NCBI GenBank assembly: GCA_905235065.1
Contig: CAJOJR010000008.1
Span: 1 to 35,876, forward strand
Source: an uncultured Bacilli bacterium
GTDB taxonomy: Bacteria > Bacillota_I > Bacilli_A > RF39 > UBA660
DNA: 35,876 nt
Reading direction: 5' to 3'
A program made the translations under genes and the position numbers. The notes under the pieces are model-generated. The model was not told the origin of the DNA, did not search any database, and saw only the letters and a list, made by a program, of their open reading frames with translations. The stretch's first letter is position 1; the number at the start of each line of letters is the position of its first letter. This document shows, in pieces, positions 13,095 through 35,876 of the stretch.

Positions 13095-13172
<78 letters not shown>

Positions 13173-27396: not shown

Positions 27397-30300
27397 ATGG
27401 AAGAGAGAATTTTGTTAGCTTTAGAAAATGTAGATGATAGTAATTATATTGATAAAATTATCAATTCTTTTTCGTATGAAGATAGGTTAAAGTTTTTTGA
27501 TAATAACTTTTCATCAAAAGATAAGGAAATTTATAATAATTTAAAATATATTTTAACTGATGATGAAATTAGTGAAATATTGAGAAATAAATATGAAAAT
27601 GAAACAGTAGGTTCAATGGTTGAAGCTATTAATAACAAATATTTACTTTGCCTTTTTAATTCAATTGGTATAGATAATAAAGTAAAGGAATTTTTAAGGT
27701 TGGATAAAACTCTTATGATATATACATGTAATAACATTTTTAATACCGATGAATTAAGAAAAGGTTTAATTGATGGAATTAAAAAAATAGATGAAGACCA
27801 TGATTCACTAGATAGAGTTGTAAATTCTATTATTAACAATATAAAAGATATTGATTTAAAATTAAAATGTATTGATAAGATTGCTAAGATATATCCTAAA
27901 ATATACTTGTATAGTCATATTATTAACATAGATGAAAGCAAAGCGGATCATTATTTTAATGATTTAGGTTTAAGTGACATAACCAAATCAATTTTGATAT
28001 TAAAATGTTCTGATGCACAAATAGCAAAAAAGTATTTTCTAAAATTAGAAGATGATATAGCTAAAGCAAATGCATTTAGAAGATTTGGTATGCAGTTTAT
28101 TGAAGCGTCAAATAAGTTTTTGGATGATGAGGATAAGCATATAGATAATAATTTTACTTTTGAAGATTTAAAAGAAATGTTTCTTTCAGCTAAAGATAAA
28201 AACAATAGAATGTTAATGCTTTTAAAATATAGTGATGCTGAAAAATTTAAATTTTTACCTTTACTTTCAGAAGAAGAAAAAATTGAGTTACTTAGTAATG
28301 TGAGTGATTCAAAGCAATTGTTTAAAGGTTTAAATTATTTAAATGGTATATTAAGTATTACTAGAGTATTAATGTTTTATAAAGGAAAATTTCCTAGGTA
28401 TAGTCAAGAATATAGTAAATTTATCTCTTCTTATGCTGAGATTTTTAACGTTAATTTAGAGCATTTAGTTGAACTTTGTAAAGTTACATCGCTTGAAATA
28501 ATTACGGATTTGGATAATAAAAATATTAGATCACTAATTAATATGGATGATATGGATTTTAATAAATTTGTTTCATTTTTCAAACAAGACAATACTAAAT
28601 TGACTACATACACTTTAAATAATATATTTGATGCCTTTGCGAATAAATCTTTTAATCTTAATTATGACTATATAATGCATTATTATGTTGATGTAATGGT
28701 TTGCTGTCAAAGAAAAGATGATAGTGCCAAAGAAATTATAAAAAGAGTTTTATTTGACTTAGATTATGATTCATTAAAAGGTTATACCGTTGACAGTTTA
28801 TATGATGCATTAGTTAATAATAATCCAACTGCTAAAAAAGATTTTCATGTGTTTTGTAACGAATACATAAAAAACATGAGAAAAAAAGAAGTTGAAATAA
28901 GTGTGGATATGTATAAAGATGAGTACTTAGAAAATGCGTATGAAGCAACTTCAGCAATTAAAGTGATAATGGAGCATGGTAATGAATGGATTTTTGATTA
29001 TTTATCTAAAATGGTGAATGAATTAAACCCAAGAGAAAAGAGTCTATTTGAAGATAAAGTTTTGTTTAATCAAATATATGAATTTAAACTAAATCCAATA
29101 TCATCCCCACCACAAATAGTAAAAACAAATATGTTTACATTTAATAAAATAATGGATAAATTCTATAATATATATAAAGATGATGATAGGGTACTTCAAA
29201 TACTAGACAGTTTTTCTATTAAAAAAGTCCCTGTCATACCTGATATTGATTCAAAATTCTTAATAGATATAATGAAACATTTAAATGCTCGCGAACTTAA
29301 AAACAAATTATTAAATGATGATAATTTATGTAAAACCTTGAATACATCATTAAAAAAGTATAGCTTTTTAGCTTTTAATGAACAGTTTAAAGATATTCAA
29401 TTAGAGGCTGATACATATTGTGATGGCGAAACCATTTCAAGTTTATTTTTAAATTATAGTGATATTATAAAAAGTTTAAAAAAATCTAATACGCCTATAA
29501 GTATGTCTTCTATATTAGATAATGCAGACACTTATAATAAATCTTCAAAAGTATATAAAGATGTTTTTGGTGAAGATAATTTTAGATTAATAACATTAAA
29601 TCCACCATTGAATAGAGCTAACAGTTTAAGGCAAGAAAGAAGAGAGGAATCTTTAAGAAATTATATTAAGTGTTATAAACGCACTAAGGTGGCTGTTCCT
29701 TCATTTGATGAAGATTTTGTAGTTAATAATAAGCAAATAAATGCGGTTGTCGGAAACTTTACAAATCCTATTAATCTTACACTTGGCGAAAGAACTGGTT
29801 CTTGCATGAGGAGTGGTGGCATTGGAGAAGATTTATATGACTTTTGTTTAAATAATGATAATGGTTTCCATATAGTCTTTTCCAATCCTGAAACAGGAGA
29901 ATTTATAAGTAGAGTAAGTGGCTTTAGAAATGGTAATACAGTGTTTTTAAATCTATTAAGAGAGAGCACTGTGGATAATTATGATTCAGATGATTTAATA
30001 AAAGTAATGAAACAAGTTGCAAATAGAATTATAGAAATGAGCAAAGAAAGTAATCATCCAATTGATAATGTTGTAATTTCTCCTGATAGAGCAATGGAAA
30101 ACTATGAAGTTGAGACAGTAAATTTGAATGCTTCAAATATTTTTAAAGGAATGAGTCGTTCATTTTGGTTTGATCTTAGTTCAAATAATGCAATGCTGTT
30201 ATCTAGTTCGAATGATGATTTATTGGTTCCAGTGAATTTAGGACAGTCTAATATTGACTATTATAATGTTCAAAGGGATAAAGTGAGATTAGCCGATAAT

Positions 30301-30576
30301 CCGACCGAAGCAGTTAATCACATAGAAGCACTCGAACAAATATTATCAGGTAAAAAATTAGAGGATATAAAAACGCCTAATGAAGAATATGAGACTTGCT
30401 ATTACGGAGAAGACTGGTATATCGCAGTAGATAAAGAAGGAAAAATATTTAAAAAAGTAATGAGTAAATCAAAAGATTATGAAAGTGCCTTTAAAGAGAT
30501 GAGTGATGTACTTGATGGTGTTCTAAAAATAGAGGAAATATTTAATGATCATGAAGACAAGTTATCTAAAAAATAA
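27397..30576 (+). CDS. Large protein of unknown function (about 1059 aa)
   Basis: Long ORF; mostly helical N-terminal ~750 aa, distinct C-terminal domain NLTLGERTGSCMRSGGIG...FHIVFSNPETGEFISRVSGFRNGNTVFLNLLRES; start moved to MEERILLALENVDD. Confidence 0.85.
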   Translation: MEERILLALENVDDSNYIDKIINSFSYEDRLKFFDNNFSSKDKEIYNNLKYILTDDEISEILRNKYENETVGSMVEAINNKYLLCLFNSIGIDNKVKEFLRLDKTLMIYTCNNIFNTDELRKGLIDGIKKIDEDHDSLDRVVNSIINNIKDIDLKLKCIDKIAKIYPKIYLYSHIINIDESKADHYFNDLGLSDITKSILILKCSDAQIAKKYFLKLEDDIAKANAFRRFGMQFIEASNKFLDDEDKHIDNNFTFEDLKEMFLSAKDKNNRMLMLLKYSDAEKFKFLPLLSEEEKIELLSNVSDSKQLFKGLNYLNGILSITRVLMFYKGKFPRYSQEYSKFISSYAEIFNVNLEHLVELCKVTSLEIITDLDNKNIRSLINMDDMDFNKFVSFFKQDNTKLTTYTLNNIFDAFANKSFNLNYDYIMHYYVDVMVCCQRKDDSAKEIIKRVLFDLDYDSLKGYTVDSLYDALVNNNPTAKKDFHVFCNEYIKNMRKKEVEISVDMYKDEYLENAYEATSAIKVIMEHGNEWIFDYLSKMVNELNPREKSLFEDKVLFNQIYEFKLNPISSPPQIVKTNMFTFNKIMDKFYNIYKDDDRVLQILDSFSIKKVPVIPDIDSKFLIDIMKHLNARELKNKLLNDDNLCKTLNTSLKKYSFLAFNEQFKDIQLEADTYCDGETISSLFLNYSDIIKSLKKSNTPISMSSILDNADTYNKSSKVYKDVFGEDNFRLITLNPPLNRANSLRQERREESLRNYIKCYKRTKVAVPSFDEDFVVNNKQINAVVGNFTNPINLTLGERTGSCMRSGGIGEDLYDFCLNNDNGFHIVFSNPETGEFISRVSGFRNGNTVFLNLLRESTVDNYDSDDLIKVMKQVANRIIEMSKESNHPIDNVVISPDRAMENYEVETVNLNASNIFKGMSRSFWFDLSSNNAMLLSSSNDDLLVPVNLGQSNIDYYNVQRDKVRLADNPTEAVNHIEALEQILSGKKLEDIKTPNEEYETCYYGEDWYIAVDKEGKIFKKVMSKSKDYESAFKEMSDVLDGVLKIEEIFNDHEDKLSKK

Positions 30577-30585
30577 CTTGTTTTT
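30557..30585 (+). terminator. Terminator of the 1059-aa gene
   Basis: ACAAGTTAT-ctaaaaa-ATAACTTGT-TTTTG. Confidence 0.75.
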
Positions 30586-30678
30586 GATTTTAAAAAAAGT
30601 AATTTTAGCATAAAAAAAAATACTTGTAAAGAGAAAAATTAAAGAAAAAAAATTTTGTAAAAATCTAATGTTTTTGTG

Positions 30679-30707
30679 TAGACAATTTCAATTTTAGTTC
30701 TTATAAT
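30679..30707 (+). promoter_or_regulatory. Sigma-A-like promoter of lon
   Basis: TAGACA-N17-TATAAT upstream of SD aggaggt. Confidence 0.65.
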
Positions 30708-30730
30708 AAACAATTAAACAGGAGGTAAAA

Positions 30731-33049
30731 ATGATTAAAACCAACTTACCAGTTATCCTATTAAAAGGTCTAATTTTACTTCCTAATCAAGAAGTAAGAG
30801 TTGAACTTACTAATCCGATTACTAAGAAAGTTATTAATATATCAAAACTTTATCATGATGATGAAGTGTTAATTGTGTGTCCTCAAAATTCTTTAGAAGA
30901 AGAGCCAGATATAAATGATTTACCTAATATTGGTGTTATTGGTAAGATTAGAAGTTATATAGAGCTTCCTAATGGAGGTTCGAGAGTGGTTATAAGTGGA
31001 ATAGAGAGAGTAAAAGTTTATAACTACGTAAATTATTCTAATGAAGATGATATATTAGAAAGCATTGTTACTCCAATTGGTAAAATTGAAACAGATGAGA
31101 TTGAAGAAACTGCAATATTAAGAAAATTAATGAGTGAACTTGATAATTATATTAATAGTTCACCTAATATATCAAATTCAATTATGTCTCAAATTAAAGG
31201 TATAGTTGATCTGGATAAATTAACTGATATTATATCAAATTTTATACCTCTTAATTTTGATAAAAAATTATCTTTAATGCTAAATATCAATCCAATTGAA
31301 AGAGCCAAATATTTAATTAGGGAAATGTCTATCGAAATCGCAATAGGTGAATTAGAAGAAAAATTAGATAGAGAGCTTAAAACAGAACTTGATGATGCTC
31401 AAAAAGAATTCATATTAAAAGAAAAAATAAAAGTTATTAGAGAAGAACTTGGTGAAAAAGATGCTAAGAATTCTGAAGTAGAGAAACTTGAAAACAAATT
31501 AAAAATTATAAAATGTAGTTCAAAAGTAAAAAATAAAATTAAAAGTGAAATTGAAAAATATAAAATGATTCCAGAAACTTCTCCAGAACTTTCTGTAACA
31601 AGAAATTATATTGATTATTTACTTAGAATTCCATGGGATAAAAAAACTGAAGATGTTACAAATTTAAAAGATATTGAAACTCATTTAAATGAAACTCATC
31701 ATGGTATGAATGAAGCAAAAGAAAGAATTATTGAATACATTGCCATAAAAGATAATATGCTTGAGAAGAAAAGCCCTATTATATGTTTGGCTGGCCCTCC
31801 TGGTGTTGGTAAAACAACTTTTGCTGAAAGTGTAGCTTCTGCTTTGGGAAAAGAATTTGTCAAAGTATCACTTGGTGGATTAAATGATTCATCAGAAATT
31901 CTAGGTCATAGAAGAACATACATAGGGGCAAATCCAGGTAAAATAATATCCGGTTTAGTTAAAAGTGGTGTTAAAAACCCGGTTTTCTTACTTGATGAAA
32001 TTGATAAACTAACAAAAGATTTTAGAGGCGATCCTGCTTCTTCATTACTTGAAGTGTTAGATCAAAATTATAATTCAAAATTTATGGACAATTATATCGA
32101 TTTACCAGTTGATTTAAGTGAAGTATTATTTATTGTAACTGCTAATGATATTTATAATATACCACCAGCTTTATATGATAGATTGGAAATTATAAATATT
32201 AATGGATATACTTTTGATGAAAAAATTATGATTGCTAAAGATTATTTAATAAAGAAGGCTCTTAAAAACAATAAAATATCCGAAAAAGATTTAGTATTTA
32301 ATGATGATATAATAAAAGATATAATAGATAATTATACAAAAGAATCTGGTGTAAGAGAGTTGGATAGACTTATAAATAAAATTATAAGAAAAGTAATAAC
32401 AGAACATAAAAAAAGTAAAAATAAAATTAAAAACATTACCTTAAATGAAAAAGATGTTAATAAATATTTAGGAACTCCAAAATATAAAGAAGATATTGTA
32501 GAAATTAATTCAACGGGTGAGGTAAAAGCATTAGCTTGTTCATCGTATGGAGGCAATATAATAACAATAGAATCTTTGTTAATAAATGGAAAGGGTGAAA
32601 TAAAATCTACTGGTAGTATAGGAGATGTTTTAAAAGAAAGTATAGAGGTAGCCCTTTCTTATATAAAGTCAAATTTAAAAACATTTAAAATTAATGAAGA
32701 ATTATTAAAAGATAAAGATCTTCATATTAATTTAAGAGAGGGAGCAGTTCCTAAAGAAGGACCTTCCGCAGGACTTGCTATAACAACATCTATAATAAGT
32801 GAACTTTTAGGTAAGAAGATACCATCTAATATATCAATGACTGGTGAAATAACTTTAAAAGGTAATGCTTTAAAAGTTGGAGGTATCAAAGAAAAATTAC
32901 TTGCTGCAGTACAAAATAAAATTAATAAAGTATATCTTCCAATTAATAATAAACCAGATGTTTTAGAAATTGATAAAAATATAATTAGTAAATTAAAAAT
33001 AATTTACGTTAAAAATTATATTGAAATATTTAATGATTTATTTTCATAA
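30731..33049 (+). CDS. lon: Endopeptidase La (ATP-dependent protease Lon)
   Basis: GPPGVGKTTFAESVA, LLDEIDKL, GDPASSLLEVLDQNYNSKFMDNYIDLPVDLSEVLFIVTAN, EGAVPKEGPSAGLAITT catalytic Ser. Confidence 0.98.
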   Translation: MIKTNLPVILLKGLILLPNQEVRVELTNPITKKVINISKLYHDDEVLIVCPQNSLEEEPDINDLPNIGVIGKIRSYIELPNGGSRVVISGIERVKVYNYVNYSNEDDILESIVTPIGKIETDEIEETAILRKLMSELDNYINSSPNISNSIMSQIKGIVDLDKLTDIISNFIPLNFDKKLSLMLNINPIERAKYLIREMSIEIAIGELEEKLDRELKTELDDAQKEFILKEKIKVIREELGEKDAKNSEVEKLENKLKIIKCSSKVKNKIKSEIEKYKMIPETSPELSVTRNYIDYLLRIPWDKKTEDVTNLKDIETHLNETHHGMNEAKERIIEYIAIKDNMLEKKSPIICLAGPPGVGKTTFAESVASALGKEFVKVSLGGLNDSSEILGHRRTYIGANPGKIISGLVKSGVKNPVFLLDEIDKLTKDFRGDPASSLLEVLDQNYNSKFMDNYIDLPVDLSEVLFIVTANDIYNIPPALYDRLEIININGYTFDEKIMIAKDYLIKKALKNNKISEKDLVFNDDIIKDIIDNYTKESGVRELDRLINKIIRKVITEHKKSKNKIKNITLNEKDVNKYLGTPKYKEDIVEINSTGEVKALACSSYGGNIITIESLLINGKGEIKSTGSIGDVLKESIEVALSYIKSNLKTFKINEELLKDKDLHINLREGAVPKEGPSAGLAITTSIISELLGKKIPSNISMTGEITLKGNALKVGGIKEKLLAAVQNKINKVYLPINNKPDVLEIDKNIISKLKIIYVKNYIEIFNDLFS

Positions 33050-33052
33050 TAG

Positions 33053-33093
33053 AAACTTTTCTTTCATAGTATTAGTGAAAGGAGAGTTTTTTT
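33053..33093 (+). promoter_or_regulatory. lon terminator hairpin that also pairs with the SD of spoVID; candidate sigma-E promoter elements at 33046-33073
   Basis: 14-bp stem (two G-U pairs) 33053-33066/33076-33089 followed by U tract and ATG; ATA-N16-CATAGTATT. Confidence 0.6.
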
Positions 33094-33822
33094 ATGAATA
33101 GTATAATTCCATTTAAAAAGAATATTATATTTAAAACACAAATAAGTGAAATAACAGATATATCACTTTCTCATGATTATAAAATATTAGATGATATTAT
33201 AGATGGAGAATTCTATTTATCTGGTTCTTATAAAATGACAGAAGCAAGTCTTATAAATGAAGATTTTTACTACAATATACCATTTAGTATCGCGCTTAGC
33301 GAAAGAATAGATAAAGACACAATTAATTTAAAATTAGAAAGTTTTGAATATAAAATAAATGGAGACACACTTTCTCTAAGTGTTAATTTAAATATGGAAG
33401 CAGAGGAAAAAGAACAAGAAGAAAGAAATATAATTGAAGACATAAAAGAAGGTATTGATGATATAAAAGAGGGTATTGCTGAAAAATTAGGACTAGATGA
33501 TAATAAAAATGAAATAGCTGAACAGCAAGAAGAAGTAAAAGAAGAATTAAAAGACATAGAAGAACCAGTTGATGATAACAAAACCAATATTAAAGAAATT
33601 GACACAGAATTAAATGATAATACCATAAATGGTTTATTATCAACCATAGATGAATCAGGATCTTATATAACTTATAAAGTACATATTTTTAGAGATGGTG
33701 ATTCCATTGAATCAATTTCTGAAAAATATAATGTCAGTATTGAAGATATAAAAGAATACAATGATATTAACACAATTAATATTGGGGATAAAATATTAGT
33801 TCCATATATTTATAATGAGTGA
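33094..33822 (+). CDS. spoVID: SpoVID/SafA-like spore coat morphogenetic protein with C-terminal LysM
   Basis: N-terminal SpoVID-like domain (KKNIIFKTQISEITDISLSHDYKI...GEFYLSGSY), acidic Glu-rich linker, C-terminal LysM DGDSIESISEKYNVSIEDIKEYNDINTINIGDKILVP; followed by ysxE-like gene. Confidence 0.75.
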   Translation: MNSIIPFKKNIIFKTQISEITDISLSHDYKILDDIIDGEFYLSGSYKMTEASLINEDFYYNIPFSIALSERIDKDTINLKLESFEYKINGDTLSLSVNLNMEAEEKEQEERNIIEDIKEGIDDIKEGIAEKLGLDDNKNEIAEQQEEVKEELKDIEEPVDDNKTNIKEIDTELNDNTINGLLSTIDESGSYITYKVHIFRDGDSIESISEKYNVSIEDIKEYNDINTINIGDKILVPYIYNE

Positions 33823-34675
33823 AGTAGTTAATGGTAAATCTAGAATAATAGATGAAGAAGATGGTAGATATTTCTTAAAACAGACAGATAAAGATATTGG
33901 AAATTTATTTGAGTATCTTCATCAAAGAGGATTTGATTATATTCCTGAAATAGTTGAAACATCAAATGAAGGAATAAAATATAAGTATATTGAATCTAAT
34001 AATGAAGATATTAACTTAAAAAGAATTGAACTTGCTAAAGTATTATCGTTTTTACATTATAAAACAACGGAACATAAAGATGTTAGTAAGTATAAATATA
34101 GAGAGATATATGATAAATTATCAGAAAAATGTGAATATATTTCAAAATATTATGATGATTTAATTGAAAAAATAGAAATGGAGGCATATCCATCTCCATC
34201 ACATTATTTATTAGAAAGAAATTTTAGCTTAATATTGGGATCAATAAATTTTATTAAAAGTGAACTTAAAAGATGGTTTAAATTAGTTGAAGATAAGCAA
34301 AAAGAAAGAGTATGTATAGTTAATAATAATCCCAGATTAAATCATTTAATAATAGGGAAAAATGAAGTTCTAACTAATTGGGATAGTTATATGGTTGATA
34401 CGCCAATAATAGATTTATATAAATTATATAAAAATGATAGAAATTATGAAGAATTTGGAGAAATATATAGTGAGTATAATGAAAATTTTAAATTAACTGA
34501 AGAAGAAAAAAAACTGTTTTTCATAATGATTGCTATTCCCCCAAAAATAGTTGAAGTTTCTTCAGAAGTTATAAATACAAAGAATGTTAAGGAAATTATT
34601 AATTATTTATCTAAAACAAATAAATTTATAAGTTCAGTAAACTCTAAAAAAGAAGTAAATAATAAATCCAATTAA
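33815..34675 (+). CDS. ysxE: CotS/YsxE-like spore coat protein (kinase-fold)
   Basis: 286 aa; phosphotransferase-like fold (YFLKQTD, AKVLSFLHYKT, CIVNNNPRLNHLIIGKNEVLTNWDSYMVDTPIIDLYKLYK); synteny spoVID-ysxE. Confidence 0.7.
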   Translation: MSEVVNGKSRIIDEEDGRYFLKQTDKDIGNLFEYLHQRGFDYIPEIVETSNEGIKYKYIESNNEDINLKRIELAKVLSFLHYKTTEHKDVSKYKYREIYDKLSEKCEYISKYYDDLIEKIEMEAYPSPSHYLLERNFSLILGSINFIKSELKRWFKLVEDKQKERVCIVNNNPRLNHLIIGKNEVLTNWDSYMVDTPIIDLYKLYKNDRNYEEFGEIYSEYNENFKLTEEEKKLFFIMIAIPPKIVEVSSEVINTKNVKEIINYLSKTNKFISSVNSKKEVNNKSN

Positions 34676-34828
34676 TAAAAGTAAAATAATTATATTAATT
34701 CTTAAAGGAAATATAAGTGTAAATATAATTTGCCATATTAAAAATAATATGAATATAAAAGTTATAATTACATTGTATATTTCTTTATTTTTTTTATATT
34801 TTTCATAAAATTGATTAAATTTCTTCAT
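34634..34828 (-). CDS. Small two-TM membrane protein of unknown function
   Basis: 64 aa; basic N-terminus and hydrophobic segments; SD-like agaggg upstream; convergent overlap with ysxE. Confidence 0.45.
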   Translation of the reverse strand: MKKFNQFYEKYKKNKEIYNVIITFIFILFLIWQIIFTLIFPLRINIIILLLLIGFIIYFFFRVY

Positions 34829-34922
34829 TATAAGACCCTCTTAATATATTATATATTTTTAAATTCTATAAAGTTCTTTATTTTTAGATAATTTTATAAT
34901 ATAATTTATAGTAGGTGAAAAT

Positions 34923-35876
34923 ATGAAAAAGGGTTTTATATCAATGACAGTTATTTATTCATTTTTACTAATATTTATATTTACATTATTAGCTCTTTTG
35001 GTTTTATACACACAAAAATCTAGATTAGTTGATTCAATTGTTTATGAAGCAAAAGAAGAAATATATAATAGAGAAGATGAATATGATTTAGCCCTTAAAT
35101 TTGAATATACTGGTAGTTATCAAACATATACCGCTCAAAAAGAAGGATATTATTTTATAGAAACTAAAGGGGCTCAAGGTGGAGGAAATATTTCAGATGC
35201 ATCAAAAGGTGGCTTTGCATCTGGATATATATATTTAAATGAAGGGGATACATTGTATGTATATGTAGGTGGTAAAGGTGGAAGTACAAGTTCATCATCA
35301 AATGCGGGTGGCTGGAATGGTGGTGGGCCTAGCGGTACTAACACTGCTGCATATAATTATGGTGGAGGCGGTGCTACAGACATAAGATACTTTGGATCAA
35401 CAACTCCATCTTCAAGTGATTTGGCATGGAATTCCGAACTCGGACTTAATTCAAGAATTATGGTAGCCGGAGGTGGAGGCGGTGGTCTTACACATACAAC
35501 TACTGCAGAATATAATTGTACCGGTGGAAATGGTGGTAACTTATATGGTGGTCCTAGTATGCTAAGTGATTATAATCAAGCGTCTCTTTCTGCAACAGCC
35601 GTTGCAAGTGGGGGAACTCAAACAGCTGGAGGCACAGATGGATCAACTGCTGCAGGCGCTTCAACAAGAACTGGTTTATTTGGTTCTGCATCTCAAACAG
35701 CAACAGGCTCTTGGGGTGGGGGCGGCGGTTCTGGTTATTATGGTGGAGCAACAGGTTTTGGACGTGGAGGTGGTGCGGGTTCATCGTTCATAAGTGGATA
35801 TATAGGATGTAATGCAATAACAAGTTCAACTGATAGAACGCCATCGAATACTGTTAAACATTATAGCGGAAAATAC
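34923..35876 (+). CDS. Glycine-rich (PF12810-type) surface protein with pilin-like N-terminus; truncated by window end
   Basis: My translation: MKKGFISMTVIYSFLLIFIFTLLALLVLYTQKSRL...FEYTGSYQTYTAQKEGYYFIETKGAQGGG...GGFASGYIYLNEGDTLYVYVGGKGG...GGGGATDIRYF; open to the window edge, so not in the ORF track. Confidence 0.8.
   Translation, partial: MKKGFISMTVIYSFLLIFIFTLLALLVLYTQKSRLVDSIVYEAKEEIYNREDEYDLALKFEYTGSYQTYTAQKEGYYFIETKGAQGGGNISDASKGGFASGYIYLNEGDTLYVYVGGKGGSTSSSSNAGGWNGGGPSGTNTAAYNYGGGGATDIRYFGSTTPSSSDLAWNSELGLNSRIMVAGGGGGGLTHTTTAEYNCTGGNGGNLYGGPSMLSDYNQASLSATAVASGGTQTAGGTDGSTAAGASTRTGLFGSASQTATGSWGGGGGSGYYGGATGFGRGGGAGSSFISGYIGCNAITSSTDRTPSNTVKHYSGKY

Follow-up and report, generated by a model that had tools for sequence, protein, structure and literature searches.

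The 44-bp gap between lon and a spoVID-like coat morphogenesis gene in an uncultured Bacilli genome probably fuses a transcription terminator, a lock on the spoVID Shine-Dalgarno (SD) sequence and a sigma-E-type promoter into a single element. RNA extended from lon would fold into a hairpin of 14-17 bp with seven U after it, which would act as the intrinsic terminator of lon; in RNA escaping termination, the same hairpin would hold the spoVID SD and an outer helix would hold its start codon, leaving the coat gene poorly translated during growth. The DNA of the 5' arm would double as the spacer of the sigma-E-type promoter, and mother-cell transcripts, starting inside the 3' arm approximately at the SD, would lack the 5' arm and be freely translated. 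The evidence, read from the DNA sequence and from comparison with relatives, consists of the hairpin, its U tract, the absence of any other terminator, the promoter motif, the geometry that joins them and a recurrence in six genera with differing arms. From these we infer the start site, the use of sigma-E rather than sigma-K, the efficiency of termination and the size of the translational block.

The lon-spoVID junction and its predicted fold

The window, which is the whole 35,876-nt stretch of DNA that was analysed, carries lon followed by the spoVID-like gene and a ysxE-like gene (Table 1), the latter two probably in the same operon. The protein of the spoVID-like gene had no SpoVID HMM match, and we use the name because of the synteny with ysxE and what we take to be an N-terminal resemblance to SpoVID; in Bacillus, too, spoVID adjoins ysxE. 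Farther along the window (34923-35876) lies an ORF that is open at its end; its N-terminus is hydrophobic, and it has a long, glycine-rich domain of the ALK/LTK type. The genome (0.88 Mb in 40 contigs) encodes a SigE-like protein, with a profile match of 298.9 bits that falls below the 348.6 cut-off, adjoining a SigG-like one, as well as further sporulation-type sigma factors. Those of its relatives that have a name are uncultured, chiefly metagenome genomes of Bacilli type, and predictions put spore formers in some orders, RF39 included (PMC10868615).

Table 1. Coordinates of genes and regulatory features at the lon-spoVID junction
Feature	Position	Strand	Basis or remark
lon, ATP-dependent protease, upstream vegetative gene	30731-33049	+	TIGR00763, 742 bits, above curated cut-off
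Outer helix, 5' side, pairing with 33092-33098 (start codon)	33043-33049	+	RNAfold
-35 element ATA, in last lon codons	33046-33048	+	ATA at spacer 15/16 in family
5' arm (anti-SD), within -35/-10 spacer	33053-33066	+	AAACUUUUCUUUCA; fold extends arm to 33051-33067
-10 element CATAGTAT	33065-33072	+	Family consensus CATATANT, T at position 8 in 95%
Hairpin loop, 7 nt	33068-33074	+	RNAfold
3' arm, SD inside	33076-33089	+	UGAAAGGAGAGUUU; pairing and stem score
Shine-Dalgarno AAAGGAG	33078-33084	+	Sequence
Predicted sigma-E transcription start (inferred)	33078-33080	+	Conserved purines 13-15 nt past C of CATA
U tract, seven U, reaching start codon	33087-33093	+	U runs of at least 5 before ATG in hairpin loci
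spoVID-like coat morphogenesis gene, LysM at C-terminus	33094-33822	+	PF01476; synteny with ysxE
ysxE-like spore gene	33815-34675	+	TIGR02904, E 4e-21, below curated cut-off

An earlier note on this DNA had described a 14-bp pairing between the two arms, and this was exact in every base and coordinate, as was its placement of a GGAG motif 9 nt 5' of the ATG. Two of the 14 pairs are G-U, the GGAG lies at 33081-33084 and the ATG at 33094, and lon ends at 33049. Folding with RNAfold lengthened the stem to 17 bp (33051-33067 with 33075-33091) and added a 7-bp outer helix between UUCAUAA and UUAUGAA, the 5' side of which contains the lon stop codon together with the ATA of the -35 element, and the 3' side the start codon, so that the spoVID start codon is predicted to be covered besides the SD. 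The minimum free energy of the hairpin was -23.6 kcal/mol compared to an average of -10.9 for 200 shuffles, none of which was as good (z -5.1), and its stem score of 31 was reached by none of 400 shuffles of the upstream region in which the SD and spacer were held fixed. The calculated cost of freeing the SD in read-through RNA was 14.2 kcal/mol; shuffled sequences needed about 3.3, and RNA that begins just 5' of the SD needed 0.4. No riboswitch or known leader family accounts for the structure, as Rfam searched at gathering score over the whole window returned a sole match, a tRNA at 13095-13168, and nothing at the hairpin.

When SD-covering stems were ranked over 410 genes sampled from 395 kb of the same genome, called by simple ORF calling with no curated annotation, that of spoVID came first. 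The second-ranked stem of the sample (G000 C6:20769-21296, minus strand, L146) lies behind GGTGGTACCACG, which looks like the T-box leader of a valS-like gene. Further candidate SD hairpins are present at other genes. Upstream of a gene for a collagen-like (GPTG-repeat) protein (G000 C4:32523-32870, plus strand, L144), the hairpin ACCTTTATTATAA/TTAAAATAGAGGT covers the SD and has a -10-like motif, TTCATATA, in its loop; yabP (G000 C3:20525-20812, minus strand, L153) is preceded by ATA-N16-CATA with a spacer segment, TTTTCTTTC, able to pair over 9 bp with the SD GGAGGAAAA. At L013 (G033), a 13-bp perfect inverted repeat found by eye, TTCATATATATTT/AAATATATATGAA, extends from about 40 nt before spoVID into the gene; its two arms contain the -10 and the start codon respectively, and the SD falls in the loop between them.

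A promoter of the sigma-E type within the hairpin had also been proposed, and its ATA, 16-nt spacer and CATAGTAT are present at this junction. We compared 97 spoVID upstream regions, 90 obtained by family search and the remainder from congeners and named records, and found the motif kept across the family at the expected distance. CATA occurred between -48 and -16 in 80/97 loci (13 expected), and alignment on CATA gave CATATANT, the eighth position being T in 95%; 61 of the 80 also had ATA upstream with a spacer of 15 or 16. The promoter reading is well supported, since ATA-N15/16-CATANNNT stood no more than 40 nt from the start in 58 of the 97 loci compared to 0.5 expected from dinucleotide shuffling. 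The pattern also stands before 9 of the 410 sampled genes of this genome, where 1.8 would be expected; gerQ and a sporulation gene of the YlmC/YmxH type belong to these nine. In B. subtilis, spoVID is switched on by sigma-E (PMC517825), and from the motif the sigma factor here would likewise be sigma-E rather than sigma-K. Transcription is predicted to start at about 33078-33080, which would remove the 5' arm and leave roughly 16 nt of 5' UTR, starting at the SD. The suggestion that a start near 33080 frees the SD is consistent with folding, in which the predicted probability of the SD being unpaired was 0.00 for read-through RNA and rose to 0.91 for the predicted sigma-E transcript. The long RNA is thus predicted to pair the SD and the short one to leave it open, and the 5'-arm DNA is where the promoter is situated.

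Recurrence of the hairpin in relatives

A strong SD hairpin was found in ten of the 97 relatives, belonging to six genera (G000 and G001; G107; G036 and G145; G140, G146 and G147; G117; G048). Eight of the 97 loci reached a stem score of at least 27, compared to 0.09 expected from shuffles keeping dinucleotides and the SD, and in each of the ten hairpin loci the promoter pattern was present and its -35/-10 spacer contained the 5' arm. Arm sequences vary between genera. As a MAFFT alignment of the hairpins left the arms out of register, we replaced pair counting with an arm-swap test, in which 5' segments paired with their own 3' partner at a mean of -14.3 kcal/mol versus -8.0 when the 3' segment came from another genus; 2 of 80 swaps were as good as the own pairing. 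Within genus g140, G146 carries AUCUCC/GGAGAU and G147 UUCUCC/GGAGAA, so that both sides differ and the pair is preserved; conservation of pairing is judged from few sequences per genus, and genus mates are non-independent.

On a Lon tree, which omits G048 because it has no lon match, the hairpin trait requires at least four gains or losses, ruling out a single origin with simple inheritance. Most relatives (87/97) have no strong SD hairpin and carry a separate terminator or none that was detected, with the SD unpaired; the hairpin therefore appears recurrent, not ancestral. Outside the ten hairpin loci there was no excess of spacer-SD complementarity (P 0.36), which excludes a rule that all spoVID promoters show such complementarity and suggests that the lock is optional, not required. 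The gene upstream of the hairpin is lon in g1, g36 and g107 and was judged by eye to be ParC/GyrA-like in g140 and LepA-like in G117, so lon is not an obligatory neighbour. The earlier note would have been refuted by a stem without covariation or conservation in relatives; pairing recurs with different arm sequences and so withstood this, but it is not general at lon-spoVID junctions.

Termination, ribosomes and the Shine-Dalgarno lock

The hairpin has the layout of an intrinsic terminator, a 17-bp stem followed by the seven U, although its stem holds only 3 G-C pairs and a simple terminator scan of 30000-35876 did not include it among the two sites listed, as it fell below the scan thresholds. 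Where other loci have an ordinary spacer between SD and ATG, the hairpin loci have a U-rich tract: the 8 nt next to the start held a mean of 6.3 T compared to 2.7 elsewhere, and T runs of at least 5 preceded the ATG in 8/10 of these loci versus 2/87 of the others. A separate terminator upstream of the -10 was present in none of the ten and in 56 of the 87 others (Fisher P 9e-5). The U tract and the absence of any other terminator suggest that the hairpin took over termination.

These same two features would be expected if the element were a compact terminator and nothing else, with occlusion of the SD a by-product of no regulatory weight. The purine-rich SD would then have been re-used as the 3' arm because the gap is short, and occlusion would add nothing, since hardly any read-through would escape termination. 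The family does pack terminators tightly up to the -10, as in the many loci where the T tract of an ordinary terminator abuts the -10 CATA. We nevertheless consider this explanation unlikely, because many relatives fit a separate terminator into equally short gaps (39-58 nt) and leave the SD untouched. Additionally, spoVID was the one gene that combined the promoter, an SD hairpin and a long U run in the parts of five genomes that were sampled; the few other genes with SD hairpins there lacked the promoter pattern or the long U run, and a genome-wide habit of a compact genome was not seen.

The spoIIP gene, a sigma-E gene in B. subtilis (PMC517825), also argues against a terminator alone. In genus g36, SD hairpins of different sequence precede spoIIP in G036 (L225, 11 bp) and G145 (L224, 15 bp), and 12-bp SD hairpins without a U tract precede it in g140 (L206, L207) and in G073 (L213), where in both cases the gene before spoIIP resembles gpr. 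Overall, SD hairpins at P < 0.05 were found in 6 of 20 spoIIP upstream regions versus 1 of 26 for lon, the vegetative control. The separate terminators in short gaps elsewhere, the combination seen only at spoVID in the sampled genome parts and the spoIIP hairpins together point to a lock beyond termination, and we infer that selection acts on the translational block as well as on termination.

The fused terminator, lock and promoter must also be weighed against translating ribosomes. Those finishing lon could open the hairpin, in which case spoVID would be tied to lon translation instead of being silenced. In g1 and g36 just 1-3 nt separate the stop codon from the 5' arm, and masking the stop and 12 nt there raised predicted SD exposure to 0.40-0.78, including a rise from 0.00 to 0.40 at this locus. 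The statement that read-through RNA cannot be translated is thus too strong, since a ribosome terminating at lon would partly free the SD. In E. coli, a terminator a few bp past a gene is almost fully repressed (PMC4824070); the B. subtilis polymerase outruns ribosomes (PMC13323073), and the hairpin could therefore form. Coupling as the purpose of the arrangement is improbable, given that in G107, g140, G117 and G048 the arm is 6-21 nt off and the same mask leaves SD exposure at 0.00-0.15, that a U tract before the ATG opposes co-transcription and that the promoter was found in all ten hairpin loci. Chance complementarity between a T-rich promoter spacer and a purine-rich SD, which from composition alone still yields about -5 kcal/mol when arms are swapped between loci, is scarcely credible in view of the excess of high stem scores, the own-partner pairing far above swaps and the stem kept between congeners.

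Known systems and meaning for the family

The comparison with the phage T4 lysozyme gene e drawn in the earlier note is apt (PMC3014915), and B. subtilis sigG is closer (PMC5942855). In T4 (McPheeters 1986; review PMC3014915), a long early RNA hides the gene e ribosome-binding site (RBS) in a hairpin, and late promoters in the 5'-strand DNA just upstream of the RBS yield RNA that is well translated, an effect measured at approximately 100-fold. The spoVID element shares the RBS hidden in a long RNA and the gene's own promoter within the 5'-arm DNA, here as predictions from sequence, whereas gene e is a phage gene with T4 late promoters and, in that review, no described role for the hairpin as terminator of the preceding gene. 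For B. subtilis sigG (spoIIIG), a hairpin of 20+ bp has been proposed to block translation of RNA reading through from the upstream operon and cannot form in RNA from sigG's own promoter (PMC5942855, its references 9 and 52). Both are sporulation genes with a proposed read-through hairpin that own-promoter RNA would lack; however, the operon upstream of sigG, spoIIGA-sigE, is sporulation-specific and the promoter is of the sigma-F/sigma-G type, as opposed to the housekeeping protease upstream, the sigma-E-type promoter and the hairpin with a U tract found here. The sigG gene of G000 (C1:65069-65842, minus strand, L141) has a small RBS hairpin, AUAUCC/GGAUUGU, of -8.2 kcal/mol, and a sigG leader hairpin of similar size has been reported in Bacilli (PMC5942855).

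In the T4 intron gene I-TevI, the RBS is hidden in RNA of the early and middle periods, and the 5' part of the structure lies by the late promoter (PMC3014915). Unlike the spoVID element, this is a phage intron gene and is not presented as terminating an upstream gene. Read-through RNA of the IS10/IS50 transposase folds over the SD and the element's own transcript does not; these are mobile element ends, with no developmental promoter or terminator. Hiding of the SD in read-through RNA combined with a local promoter that skips the lock is thus known from scattered cases (T4 e, I-TevI, sigG, IS10). From T4 e and sigG the spoVID element differs in its probable role as terminator, in following a housekeeping gene and in an apparently repeated origin in which the promoter spacer supplies the anti-SD arm.

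A broader proposal, which we put forward tentatively, is that a terminator, an SD lock and a sporulation promoter within about 45 bp have arisen repeatedly in one uncultured Bacilli lineage and insulate mother-cell genes, namely spoVID after lon or other housekeeping genes and spoIIP after a housekeeping-type gene or gpr. A hairpin behind gpr would stop translation of spoIIP in the wrong compartment. Here the lock can be traced across a family, in about 100 upstream regions, where it seems to have arisen repeatedly, the anti-SD arm comes from the part of the promoter left free between -35 and -10, and the lock would also serve as terminator of the preceding gene. If true, this would be a way for small genomes to isolate developmental genes from adjacent housekeeping transcription, and other cases might come to light if promoter spacers were searched for complementarity to the SD.
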